DNA of 64,000 bases from positions 1 through 64,000 of the forward strand of contig JAQXBM010000064.1 in the NCBI GenBank assembly GCA_029252405.1, given 5' to 3'. Shown piece after piece: positions 56,584 to 61,145 of this stretch (its first letter is position 1; each line of letters opens with the position of its first letter). The translations under genes were made by a program, and so were the position numbers. The notes beneath the pieces were generated by a model. The model saw only the letters and a program-made list of their open reading frames with translations, had not been told where the DNA came from and ran no database searches. Source of the DNA: Crocinitomicaceae bacterium. Its GTDB lineage: Bacteria > Bacteroidota > Bacteroidia > Flavobacteriales_D > Crocinitomicaceae.

Positions 56584-57312
56584 ATGAGATCAATACTGCT
56601 ATTTTCCCTGCTCCTTGTTGGGTCGAGCCTGCTTGCTCAAGAAACAAAAACATCAATAGGATTCTCCCTGAATCCGAGTTATTCCTCAGTGCTCTACCAA
56701 AAAACGGGAACCTTTTCTGATGCGGATATCGAATTGATCGAGTCAGGAACGAATGGTCAATTGGGGCTTTCGGGAACCTTTTTCTTTCAGTATAAATTGA
56801 CGGACAAGCTCTTCATTGATTGGGGACTTGGCTTGCAGAATTACCGCTACAATACAACCTACTATTCGCAGACGAACATTGAACATTCGGATATCCAAAG
56901 GGACACGAAATACAGTCAGTATTATATTCAATTCAACACTTCACTGAAATATCGCTTGTTCAAAACCCTCTATGTGAGAGCCGGAATCGGAATTGATCTT
57001 TTAGCGGATCATCGTGCGGAGCGAACAGAAACCTGCCCAACCTGCGAGTACAATTATCAAGGGATAGACAATTCTGCCATATACAAGGAGGCCATTTTTC
57101 CAGCATCATTTGGATTGGGCTACGAACTTAAGTTGAAGGATAATCTCAACTTGATGGCTGAACTCTTTGGTTCAATGTCACTGAGTGATGCATTTATGAC
57201 GACCCTTTTCACGGATCAAGTGCAAGAGTTACCAGGAGCACTGCTGAAGCAACATCTTCATCAACGACCTTTTCAAGTAGGATGTAAAATTGGAATTATC
57301 CGTTCATTTTAA
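56584..57312 (+). CDS. Outer-membrane beta-barrel protein (PorT/OmpA-barrel-like)
   Basis: A 242-residue exported protein with signal peptide MRSILLFSLLLVGSSLLAQ. The rest consists of alternating aromatic/polar strands (GFSLNPSYSSVLYQ, LFIDWGLGLQNYRY, YYIQFNTSLKYRLF, LYVRAGIGIDLL, FGLGYELKLKDNLNLMAELFG), as in eight-stranded porin-like barrels common in Bacteroidetes. A CPTC pair near residue 152 may form a disulphide in a loop. The substrate is unknown. Its last 17 bases overlap the end of the convergent GNAT gene. Confidence 0.75.
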   Translation: MRSILLFSLLLVGSSLLAQETKTSIGFSLNPSYSSVLYQKTGTFSDADIELIESGTNGQLGLSGTFFFQYKLTDKLFIDWGLGLQNYRYNTTYYSQTNIEHSDIQRDTKYSQYYIQFNTSLKYRLFKTLYVRAGIGIDLLADHRAERTETCPTCEYNYQGIDNSAIYKEAIFPASFGLGYELKLKDNLNLMAELFGSMSLSDAFMTTLFTDQVQELPGALLKQHLHQRPFQVGCKIGIIRSF

Positions 57313-57823
57313 GCCAATCTGACTTGTTGAGCGCGTAGTAGACAGCGTCTTCATCATAGATGTGAACTTCCTTTTCGTACGTCAAGCCGAGCTTTTTCAT
57401 CAAAGAGGTCGAGGCAACATTATCAATGTTTGCAAGGGAAATAATACGATCTAGTCCTAAATCATTGAAACCAAACTCCAAGCAAGGCAGTGCAGATTCA
57501 TATCCATACCTCTGAAGCCAATATTTGCGTTTCAAGCGATATCCAATCTCGACTTCGCCCAATTCTTCAATGAACTTCAATCCTGTGAACCCCATGTATT
57601 CGCCTGTTTCTTTGTGTTCGACGACAAATCGGCCAAAACCGTGCTTTTCATAGTCTCCCATTGGCGCTTTTTTGATCATTTCACGGTGTTCTTCGAGTGT
57701 TCCAGTATCAACACCACCTAGAAACTCCATCACGATTGGATCCTGGCTCATTTCGTAACTCGCTTCAGCATCTTCAATTGTGAAGGGACGCAATATCATT
57801 CGCGGTGTTTCTATTGTTTTCAT
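57296..57823 (-). CDS. RimJ/RimL-type GNAT acetyltransferase
   Basis: A 175-residue N-acetyltransferase. The N-terminal MKTIETPRMILRPFTIEDAE is the classic start of GNAT 'acetyltransf_3' proteins, followed by HKETGEYMGFTGL, the EVEIGYRLKRKYWLQRYG acetyl-CoA loop region and NVASTSLMKKLGLTYEKE. The CoA-binding loop reads RKYWLQRYGYESA rather than the usual Q/RxxGxG/A, so binding may differ slightly. The substrate (protein N-terminus, amine or antibiotic) cannot be told. It is convergent with the barrel gene and shares its last 17 bases with it. Confidence 0.9.
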   Translation of the reverse strand: MKTIETPRMILRPFTIEDAEASYEMSQDPIVMEFLGGVDTGTLEEHREMIKKAPMGDYEKHGFGRFVVEHKETGEYMGFTGLKFIEELGEVEIGYRLKRKYWLQRYGYESALPCLEFGFNDLGLDRIISLANIDNVASTSLMKKLGLTYEKEVHIYDEDAVYYALNKSDWLKMNG

Positions 57824-57926: not shown

Positions 57927-58388
57927 TCAGTCTTTCTTTGGGTCTGGTGGATATACAAATGATTTCGTCCCATCTTCGTTCGTAATTATAATCGGATCTC
58001 CATTATGGTCTACTAACGGTATGCGTTCTTCAATGGCTTCTGGGTCTGGGTAAACAAACGATTTTGTTCCATCGTCATTTGTGATGATAATTGGATCTCC
58101 ATTATCATCTACTAAAGGTATGCGTTCTTCAATAGCTTCTGGATCTGGATAAACAAACGATTTTGTTCCATCGTCATTTATGATGACAATTGGATCTCCA
58201 TTATCATCTGCTAAAGGTACGCGTTCTTCAACGCTTTTAGGATATACGTATGATTTTGTTCCATCATCATTGGTGATGACAATATAATTTCCGTTTTTGT
58301 CTACTAATGGAGTTTCTGATTGAGCGGAACTTGCAAAAGAAATTACGGCGCATATTGCTACCTCGAATAGCGATGTTAACTTTTTCAT
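57927..58388 (-). CDS. Small secreted protein of four tandem 33-residue repeats
   Basis: A 153-residue protein I do not recognise. After a signal peptide (about 1-22, ending FASSAQS) nearly all of it is four repeats of the form PLVDDNGDPIIITNDDGTKS-FVYP plus a linker PDPEAIEERI. At DNA level the unit is 99 bases: the string GGATCTCC recurs at 57994, 58093 and 58192. The first repeat is the most divergent (KNGNYIVITN, KSYVYP). Alternating Asp/Asn/Gly turns and V/I strands suggest small beta-hairpins, possibly Ca-binding or adhesive. No sorting domain or anchor is seen, so it is periplasmic or released. It stands alone between the DUF4442 and GNAT genes. Confidence 0.8.
   Translation of the reverse strand: MKKLTSLFEVAICAVISFASSAQSETPLVDKNGNYIVITNDDGTKSYVYPKSVEERVPLADDNGDPIVIINDDGTKSFVYPDPEAIEERIPLVDDNGDPIIITNDDGTKSFVYPDPEAIEERIPLVDHNGDPIIITNEDGTKSFVYPPDPKKD
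57936..58298. repeat. 99-bp tandem repeat array within the small secreted-protein gene
   Basis: Three nearly identical 99-base units and one diverged unit lie head to tail. The anchor GGATCTCCATTAT is found at 57994, 58093 and 58192. Most differences are single bases, so the array looks recently expanded and could change copy number by slippage or recombination. The whole units are in frame, so copy-number changes would keep the reading frame. Confidence 0.85.
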
Positions 58389-58454: not shown

Positions 58455-58970
58455 TTATTTATTTAATTTTCGTTTTTGTTTCTCCTTGTAAAACGATTTG
58501 CTTGAAATGTAGATGATTTTTTCAACCTCAGCTGATACATTTCCATCGCCATCAAGTAAGTCAACATCCAGTGTTAAATCGATTTCATTTTGACCTTCAA
58601 CGTCCAATTTAATCTGTTCGATCAGTTTTTCTGTGATTTTGAAATCCGCAAAAAGTGTTGAAGTTCCAGGTCGTTTGAATTTGATTGTTGCCGCTTTGTC
58701 CCAAACAACGTAATCTTTCCCGAGCAAGTTAATGAGTTGAACCATGTAAATCCCGTCCAAGCAACTGTACATGTGACCGCCATACATCGTTCCAACGTAG
58801 TTGCGGGTCTTGTAATTCAGTTTCAGCTTGATTTTAATGTCATCCAGATTGTCACTGGCAGAAACGATTCGTCCGCCCGTTCTTCGATACATCGGGGAAA
58901 TATTGAAAAAGAACTTGAAAGCTCGTCCCATTCCAATTTTTCGTCCTATCCATTCGCCGAATTTTACCAT
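58455..58970 (-). CDS. DUF4442 hotdog-fold protein (putative thioesterase)
   Basis: A 171-residue protein of the DUF4442 family, related to the hotdog thioesterases. It starts with an amphipathic helix (RKIGMGRAFKFFFNISPMYRRTGG), then the hotdog core NLDDIKIKLKLNYKTRNYVGTMYGGHMYSCLDG, where GTMYGG..Y replaces the HGG motif of PaaI-type enzymes. Thioester hydrolysis of an acyl-CoA or acyl-ACP is plausible since fabF follows upstream on the same strand (141-base gap), but enzyme activity is unproven. The basic C-terminus (KEKQKRKLNK) may bind membrane or nucleic acid. Confidence 0.85.
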   Translation of the reverse strand: MVKFGEWIGRKIGMGRAFKFFFNISPMYRRTGGRIVSASDNLDDIKIKLKLNYKTRNYVGTMYGGHMYSCLDGIYMVQLINLLGKDYVVWDKAATIKFKRPGTSTLFADFKITEKLIEQIKLDVEGQNEIDLTLDVDLLDGDGNVSAEVEKIIYISSKSFYKEKQKRKLNK

Positions 58971-59111: not shown

Positions 59112-60356
59112 TTACGCTTCAAATTTCTTAAACAACACCGAAGCGATATGTCCGCCAAAACCGAACGTATTACTCATTCCGTAAGTCATTTCCTTCGGAA
59201 CTGCTTTGCCAATAGGGAAATCGAAATTATCTGCGAAATCTGGTTCGATCTCAGTCGTGTTAATTGTCGGCGGAACGATTCCTTCTTTCAAAGCAAGAAC
59301 AGTGGCAATTCCTTCAATCGCGCCAGCAGCGCCAAGTAAGTGACCCGTCATTGACTTTGTAGCCGAAATTGATAAGGATTTTCGTTTTCCGAAAACACGA
59401 TCAGCTGCAATTAATTCACTTTTATCTCCAAGAGGTGTCGATGTCGCGTGCATGTTCACGTAGTCAATGTCTTCAGCGGTAATTCCTGCTTCGCGCATGG
59501 CTTCGTTCATTCCGAGCACGGCTCCGTCACCTTCAGGATGTGTTCCCGTTAAGTGATAAGCGTCTGCCGCCATTCCACCACCAACGATTTCTCCGTAGAT
59601 TGTTGCTCCGCGTTTTTTGGCGTGCTCGTATTCTTCTAAAATGAGCGCTCCAGCACCTTCACCCATTACGAATCCATCTCTGGAAACATCGAAAGGTCTA
59701 GAGGCACTTTTTGGATCATCATTTTTCATGGATAATGCGCGAGCTGATGCAAATCCACCCATTGATGCTTCAGTAATTGCCGCTTCAGATCCTCCACTGA
59801 TAATCATATCGGCTTTGTCCCACTTGATGTAGTTAAACGCTTCAATTAATGCTGTATTGGATGTTGCACAGGCAGAAACGGGGCAGAAGTTTACTCCGCG
59901 AAGGCCATATTTAATCGAAATAATCCCTGCGGCAATATCTACTAAAATTCGCGGGATGAAGAAAGGTGTGAAACGTGGAGTTCCGTCACCGTTAATGTAT
60001 TCTTTCATTTGATCTCCGAAGGTTTGGATTCCTCCGTTTCCAGATCCCCAAATTACACCAATTCGGTCTTTGTTGAGTTCATCCAGTTCAATGTTTCCAT
60101 TGTTTAAGGCTTGATCAACAGCGTATAAAGCGTACAATGAAAATGGATCATACTTTCGAACTTCTTTCACGTGAAAATGATCTTTCACATCGAAATCCTT
60201 CAGTTCACAGGCGAATTGAGCGCGAAATTTTGAAACATCAAACTTTGTGATTGTTTCTGCTCCGCTAACGCCATTTTTGAGGTTTTCCCAATACGTATCG
60301 AGATCGTTTCCGATTGGAGTCAAAGCTCCCATTCCAGTGATTACAACTCTTCTCAT
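59112..60356 (-). CDS. fabF: 3-oxoacyl-ACP synthase II
   Basis: A 414-residue condensing enzyme of fatty acid elongation. The active-site Cys163 lies in VSACATSN; the His residues are in MHATSTPLGD and MTGHLLGAAG, giving the Cys-His-His triad, with the late NTFGFGGHIASV. It adds malonyl-ACP to acyl-ACP. No acpP is adjacent (fabF is often next to acpP); here it is the last gene of a tight group sufS-sufE-DUF59-fabF, starting 14 bases after the DUF59 gene. The 141 bases after it contain repeated CGATTTTC/TTCGATTTT strings and no gene. Confidence 0.96.
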   Translation of the reverse strand: MRRVVITGMGALTPIGNDLDTYWENLKNGVSGAETITKFDVSKFRAQFACELKDFDVKDHFHVKEVRKYDPFSLYALYAVDQALNNGNIELDELNKDRIGVIWGSGNGGIQTFGDQMKEYINGDGTPRFTPFFIPRILVDIAAGIISIKYGLRGVNFCPVSACATSNTALIEAFNYIKWDKADMIISGGSEAAITEASMGGFASARALSMKNDDPKSASRPFDVSRDGFVMGEGAGALILEEYEHAKKRGATIYGEIVGGGMAADAYHLTGTHPEGDGAVLGMNEAMREAGITAEDIDYVNMHATSTPLGDKSELIAADRVFGKRKSLSISATKSMTGHLLGAAGAIEGIATVLALKEGIVPPTINTTEIEPDFADNFDFPIGKAVPKEMTYGMSNTFGFGGHIASVLFKKFEA

Positions 60357-60683: not shown

Positions 60684-61094
60684 TTAGCTTGCCGCTATTG
60701 CGCTCAATTTCATTTTCTTTACCATGCTCGCCAATCCGTTTGATCGAGTGGGAGATAGGTGTTCGTGTAATCCGATTTCCTGAATGAATCGAAGGTCAGT
60801 TGTTGCAACGTCTTTTGCTGTTTCCCCGTTCAAAACGCGAATCAACAATCCGATAATTCCTTTGGTGATGATGGCGTCAGAATCAGCTGTAAAGCTCATT
60901 TTTCCATCTTCCACTGCCGTATTCAACCAAACACGTGATTGACAGCCTTCGATTAATTTATCGTCGGTTTTATTTTCATCTGAAATAATTGGGAGTTCTT
61001 TTCCAAGTTCGATGATGTATTCGTACTTGTCCATCCAGTCATCGTAGATGGCGAAATCGTCAATTATCTCCTGTTGTTTATCCTCTAATGTCAT
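60684..61094 (-). CDS. sufE: Cysteine desulfuration protein SufE
   Basis: A 136-residue sulfur acceptor that takes persulfide sulfur from SufS and raises its activity. The catalytic Cys51 in EGCQSRVWL is at the same number as in E. coli SufE when the ATG at 61094 is used; an upstream in-frame ATG at 61136 would add 14 residues lying over a TTCGA...CTCA repeat half and is rejected. Other motifs are the ITKGIIGLLI and the C-terminal TRSNGLASMVKKMK. It follows sufS by 51 bases; no sufBCD genes are in the window. Confidence 0.95.
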   Translation of the reverse strand: MTLEDKQQEIIDDFAIYDDWMDKYEYIIELGKELPIISDENKTDDKLIEGCQSRVWLNTAVEDGKMSFTADSDAIITKGIIGLLIRVLNGETAKDVATTDLRFIQEIGLHEHLSPTRSNGLASMVKKMKLSAIAAS

Positions 61095-61113
61095 TTTCAA
61101 TTTTTCTATCTGT

Positions 61114-61134
61114 GCAGTGAGCCTGTCGAAGTGC
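61114..61134. repeat. Solo TTCGA...CTCA repeat half between sufS and sufE
   Basis: The minus strand reads GCACTTCGACAGGCTCACTG, the same core type (TTCGAC then CTCA) as the arms of the four intergenic hairpins, but no second arm is present. It fills most of the 51-base gap. It could be half of a decayed hairpin. Confidence 0.5.
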
Positions 61135-61145
61135 AATTTTTCAAT

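Follow-up and report, generated by a model that had tools for sequence, protein, structure and literature searches.

The window, a 64,000-nucleotide stretch of a Crocinitomicaceae genome (G000; 4.28 Mb in 102 contigs), carries on contig C101 a minus-strand gene for a small repeat protein, flanked by genes for a GNAT acetyltransferase on one side and for a DUF4442 protein and a FabF-type ketoacyl synthase on the other (Table 1). A sequence-only reading had described this open reading frame as encoding a small secreted repeat protein; its coordinates proved correct, and its secreted nature is supported by a signal peptide that was called by eye rather than with a predictor. The protein consists of four units of about 33 amino acids, whose 25-residue cores span residues 26-147 of 153 and are followed by a six-residue tail, PDPKKD here and PDQKKD or PDQKKE in the orthologues (alignment A1). 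Cys13 is invariant among the three array orthologues; it has no lipobox, and more hydrophobic residues follow it. TRF reports a 99-bp array of 2.9 copies at 57948-58231 (88% matches), and since its score of 428 is the highest of the three arrays in the window, we do not regard it as a chance repeat. The motif DxNGDPIxITNxDGTKSxVYP, read at first into every unit, is exact in units 3 and 4 and deviates in the others, to IIN in unit 2 and NGNYIVITN in unit 1.

Table 1. Features of the repeat-protein locus in the window.
Feature	Position	Strand	Remark
Repeat-protein ORF	57927..58388	minus	153 aa + stop; orthologues at the matching locus in two further genomes
Apparent signal peptide, residues 1-23, AQ|SE end	58320..58388	minus	by inspection
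Unit 1 core, residues 26-50	58239..58313	minus	sequence comparison
Unit 2 core, residues 57-81	58146..58220	minus	93% identical to unit 3 in DNA
Unit 3 core, residues 90-114	58047..58121	minus	sequence comparison
Unit 4 core, residues 123-147	57948..58022	minus	92% protein identity to unit 3; synonymous sites near saturation
C-terminal tail PDPKKD, conserved	57930..57947	minus	alignment of three orthologues
DUF4442 protein (PF14539)	58455..58970	minus	66 bp upstream of the array ORF, same strand
GNAT acetyltransferase	57296..57823	minus	locus marker in four genomes
FabF-type ketoacyl synthase	59112..60356	minus	second locus marker

Bare arrays lie between the fabF and DUF4442 genes and the GNAT gene in three genomes, G000, G028 and G032; a close GNAT homologue (69-82% identity) is present in G028, G032 and also G008. 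The fabF neighbourhood was compared in these four of the 34 genomes of the genus sample. DUF4442 matches at E<=1e-20 occur in three of the 34, the same three that have a bare array, a co-occurrence that may reflect shared ancestry alone. The corresponding region of G032 also holds a perfect 9-bp microsatellite, GTTGGATTA x 13.7, at L087:7196-7318 between fabF and the DUF4442 gene, with a shorter TTGGATTA x 4 at the corresponding place in L086. L087:4934-5239 carries a tandem repeat of 121 bp x 2.5, and its consensus unit is similar to the beginning of window ORF 60684-61136, which is probably SufE-like.

The units differ in how far their DNA has diverged. Over 99 bp, identity is 92.9% between units 2 and 3, 71.7% between units 3 and 4 and 68.7% between units 2 and 4, the comparison window of unit 4 taking in the C-terminal tail; over the 25-codon cores the same pairs share 93, 81 and 77%. 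The claim of three nearly identical 99-bp units thus stands for the protein, but in DNA only for units 2 and 3. Units 3 and 4 have 23 of 25 core residues in common and differ at 12.0 of 16.7 synonymous and 2.0 of 58.3 nonsynonymous sites (dN/dS about 0.01; Fisher p = 2e-8 on rounded counts); because they stay alike as proteins despite this synonymous divergence, their likeness has been kept by selection and is not a trace of recent expansion. Between species, dN/dS is 0.05-0.36 in the 13 of 32 unit pairs with a computable dS, dS being saturated in the remaining 19. The older units are therefore under strong purifying selection. Units 2 and 3, separated by one synonymous and four nonsynonymous differences (ratio 1.17), show no sign of constraint either way; only their duplication looks recent from the DNA comparison, so that the expansion proposed from DNA identity shrinks to this pair.

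Unit number at the shared locus is four in the window genome, four, more diverged, in G028 and two in G032. The suspected copy-number variability is thereby confirmed between species, the level of comparison given by genome collections with one genome per species. With 99 bp divisible by three, each unit stays in frame, which makes the on/off phase variation proposed alongside it unlikely.

GldN/PorN belongs to the ring of the hub that serves type IX secretion and gliding. A first search of the window genome and 98 relatives gave, besides arrays, many weak matches to a short stretch of proteins of about 346 amino acids; those of the window genome are two adjacent GldN (TIGR03523 E 4.3e-50 and 5.4e-47; PF19841 E 4.7e-63 and 2.9e-57), encoded at L119:7607-9779 on contig C15 after three ORFs that, by position rather than by profile, are presumably gldK-, gldL- and gldM-like. 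Several relatives in the genus likewise have two GldN matches side by side. As a safeguard against circularity, a units-only profile (A5) was built from the ten units of the three array proteins and no GldN. Aligned by hhalign with an alignment of 11 GldN, it matched columns 171-200 (probability 97.8, E 8.2e-13), with 43% identity across the unit cores. The score of 67.7 compares with maxima of 27.5 for 200 column-shuffled GldN profiles and 19.4 for 200 column-shuffled unit profiles against GldN, and falls to 11.2 (probability 0.2) against GldN from which the segment has been removed. By profile alignment, the unit is thus shown to be homologous to the GldN segment between the N-terminal part and the strand SxDIVQYRIKEDWFFDK. 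The sequence-only reading knew no family with this repeat, and indeed none of the Pfam and NCBIfam models reaches its cut-off, but the unit is recognisable as this piece of GldN/PorN. At some positions conserved in GldN the array units deviate, NG replacing YG and the PPRDT tail being lost, changes by which their specificity may have shifted.

Apart from the array proteins themselves, A5 had 34 matches at E<=1e-3 in the 34 genus genomes, the best at 3e-11. Sorting by hand put twenty-five in ORFs above the TIGR03523 cut-off; the other nine fell in further module-bearing proteins, several of them GldN paralogues: three in paralogues of 281-286 amino acids with sub-threshold TIGR03523 matches, two in proteins of about 235 amino acids, two in a G008 protein at the array locus and two in larger two-module proteins. 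Proteins of other kinds begin to appear at E about 0.01. Only 25 of the 47 genus GldN above the TIGR03523 cut-off carry an A5 match at E<=1e-3, one of the two in the window genome lying just past the threshold (E 0.0012); to judge from these matches, the segment is variable even within GldN. When the three array proteins were used to query 84,980 species genomes, in an independent scan that relies on exact short patterns and is non-exhaustive, 387 candidate stretches came down to three confirmed loci, two of them arrays and the third a GldN that immediately follows a gldM-like ORF.

When aligned with PorN chains, the segment falls just ahead of strand SAEVKAYYVKEEWYF, which leads up to the PorN loop F156-D162; the PorN numbering offset of 21 was deduced from W154 and the FTPTNSD stretch. 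According to PMC12421860, this loop touches PorK on the membrane side, and modelling places PorM D4 on loops 4 and 6 of PorN. Should the numbering of regions follow the chain, the segment would lie at or near PorN loop 6, at the motor-facing end, a GldM-facing placement that derives from the loop numbering in that one paper. In PMC12635249, modelling supports contacts of PorM with PorN only, at weak confidence, and GldK and GldN are placed in the gliding track.

The distribution of the segment was followed with a mixed profile of units and GldN segments (A2), whose counts bear on distribution and not on homology. It matched 79 of 240 family genomes, in 13 of 24 genera, at E<=0.01, and 72 of 399 genomes of the order at E<=0.001, all 72 belonging to the family of the window genome; as the order sample comprises 70 genera and the family 24, at least 46 genera of other families are without a match. 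Outside the family, 14 GldN from 13 genomes were compared with the segment profiles, and all failed to match (best E 30 and 21); this profile test covered all 20 loci L039-L058, and alignment A3 leaves out the non-GldN ORF L051. Within the family, G054 has a GldN without the segment, and G001 and G009, both of the window genus, have GldN above the TIGR03523 cut-off and no mixed-profile match. In these profile searches, the long form of the segment is shown to occur in one family of the order only.

The segment also occurs in GldN-like paralogues, which form groups of about 280 and 235 amino acids (for example L002, L124 and L136) and, unlike the array protein, carry it once each and with flanks. 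PF19841 is above cut-off for the two L002 proteins and for L136, and neither L124 nor a 225-aa protein of G008 has a Pfam match. In the 235-aa group, L136 matches PF19841 over residues 38-210 (E 4e-8), and two other members have no Pfam match alongside it. With the module left out, the C-terminal part of this group aligns with that of GldN (probability 79.1, E 1.6e-5; score 34.7, where 60 shuffles reached at most 19.1), the N-terminal part alone reaches a probability of 7.1, and the full group profile with its module gives an alignment to GldN of 182 columns (E 1.2e-15). From the L136 match, the C-terminal match and the full-profile alignment together, we conclude that the 235-aa group belongs to the GldN family. 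Two tandem GldN paralogues of 284 and 280 amino acids with the segment lie at L121:3411-5179 (contig C6 of the window genome), outside the gld cluster. The proteins of L129, L133, L142 and L143 have two modules about 194-223 residues apart, and that of L143 (= L030:1489-3327) has a sub-threshold WG-repeat match downstream.

The array locus was found in four genomes, and in the fourth, G008, it holds a GldN paralogue with a repeated module in place of a bare array. Between its fabF and GNAT genes lie the 225-aa protein, with one module, and a 296-aa protein (L009:1228-2115) with two clear modules; a third stretch of the latter is non-significant as a module (E 0.4). Outside its modules, the 296-aa protein matches the N-terminal (E 2.3e-10) and C-terminal (E 1.3e-10) parts of the 235-aa group, E-values being for 10,000 sequences and the profiles having been built without either G008 protein. 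It resembles the array protein in locus, in its tandem units and in a signal peptide, the last by eye, and differs from it in keeping both terminal parts seen in the 235-aa group, in its diverged units and in giving no TRF array. With its tandem modules, the 296-aa protein is a plausible INTERMEDIATE state towards the bare array.

Whole-protein comparisons gave a different picture for the array protein itself. It has no PF19841 or TIGR03523 row at E<=10, a search in which the HMMER filters drop most matches above about 0.1, and no match at E<=1 to profiles of the N- and C-terminal parts of GldN. It does have, in four copies, the internal segment seen in the GldN of this family, a segment that does not define GldN at large; judged as a whole protein, it is not a GldN-family member, and it is a derivative of one GldN segment. 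Curated tandem-repeat models in Pfam and NCBIfam gave nothing above cut-off, and no T9SS C-terminal sorting domain is among its NCBIfam matches. Low library E-values for U71, Permuted_GreAB-C, phrog_30084 and others were set aside: no Pfam or NCBIfam row reaches its curated cut-off, and a stretch that passes alone is absent from 10 of 19 rows in Pfam, 4 of 8 in NCBIfam and 14 of 14 in PHROGs, as would be expected where weak matches to a repeat add up. Proteins of about 1710-1750 amino acids in many genomes (E 4e-5 and weaker) were rejected as chance, that of the window genome having E 0.2 with A5. Large ORFs on contig C211 of G009 also matched initially, a match that is gone at E<=10 with A5. 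Calcium-binding or carboxypeptidase-regulatory-like turns, as the DxNGD/DGT pattern might suggest, found no supporting model.

Among solved structures the segment profile has no match (best E 0.037). AlphaFold models are of low confidence, both for the window protein with two orthologues (mean pLDDT 46.8) and for one GldN alone (pLDDT 30.7), and were not used for a fold search because such models give meaningless matches. A literature search on GldN structure, paralogues, GldO or duplication and tandem repeats returned, by title and start of abstract among the matches listed, no GldN-derived repeat.

Bacteroidota surface repeat proteins are secreted and built of tandem units. The array protein is likewise secreted and tandem, and departs from them in being small, in showing no T9SS C-terminal domain and in having units whose source can be identified. 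With GldN/PorN it shares a signal peptide and, in units homologous to residues about 171-200 of the family's GldN, the segment; it differs in having this segment four times, without the rest of GldN and outside the gld cluster.

These comparisons leave little doubt that the array protein originates from the GldN family, and they suggest that one piece of GldN was excised, multiplied and retained as a protein of its own. We tentatively favour, at somewhat less than even confidence, a reading in which it is a GldN paralogue stripped to a multiplied loop that acts in the periplasm by presenting this loop to a hub partner. A paralogue would have arisen, its loop been multiplied in place and its N- and C-terminal parts then been lost, the direction being deduced, to leave a signal peptide, loops and a short charged tail. 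With a signal peptide, no T9SS C-terminal domain and no evident lipobox, the product would be expected to stay in the periplasm as a soluble protein, sharing the compartment with GldN; the array genome also encodes full-length GldN that carries the segment. There, the array would present copies of the GldN loop to a partner, most plausibly on the side of the hub that faces GldM, and so serve as a multivalent ligand, competitor or adaptor whose unit number sets its valency. The constraint on the older units and the persistence of the gene in three species argue for a binding role; that several GldN loop copies are shown to the loop's own partner is the mode of action we judge likeliest, though we hold it with more reserve than the reading as a whole. 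Improbable as it stands is a stronger version, in which the array is a stand-alone multivalent regulator that occupies GldM and tunes or bridges the coupling of motor and ring, repeat number setting the strength.

A serious rival accepts the GldN origin and lets the array leave the hub, as a generic, extended protein of the envelope or the cell exterior (a spacer, matrix or surface protein) that has no T9SS partner and whose beta-hairpin units were retained for stability. The gene lies outside the gldK-gldL-gldM-gldN cluster, on a different contig and beside fatty-acid, GNAT and outer-membrane beta-barrel genes, the units have array-specific consensus residues, and the low-confidence array model gives each unit a short two-strand hairpin. 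The closeness of the unit cores to the GldN segment speaks against such a role, as does a constraint on the older units that a mere spacer would not obviously need, and we consider it unlikely. We give distinctly less weight to the idea that the unit is a small module in its own right, which entered GldN in this family by insertion and was amplified elsewhere. In its favour, the segment is longer than, or unlike, its counterpart in the GldN of other families, and it recurs in the larger two-module proteins, whose similarity to GldN is essentially confined to the module (44 columns); yet three of four outside-family GldN inspected carry a shorter piece with a similar D-P-x-T-x-E-type turn, and carriers are mostly GldN or have GldN-like flanks.

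Slightly less probable again is a length-variable contingency gene whose unit number shifts between strains: the DNA identity of units 2 and 3 and the differing unit numbers of the three species would fit, but the DNA of the other units has probably diverged too far for slippage or recombination to be frequent, and an in-frame unit offers no on/off switch. That the array is a decaying, functionless relic of a GldN paralogue, as the missing N- and C-terminal parts, the varying unit number and the four nonsynonymous differences against one synonymous between units 2 and 3 might suggest, is very improbable, being largely refuted by the constraint on units 3 and 4 and by a signal peptide, frame and tail that are intact in three species.

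An orphan repeat protein is now linked to one particular segment of a secretion machine that has been studied in depth, and attention is drawn to a part of GldN that was altered and reused in one bacterial family. Likely successive states can be seen side by side, from the segment in GldN, through paralogues and a tandem inside a paralogue, to the bare array. If the array does bind the hub, it would offer a ready-made means of probing how motor and ring touch, a contact that is little understood.
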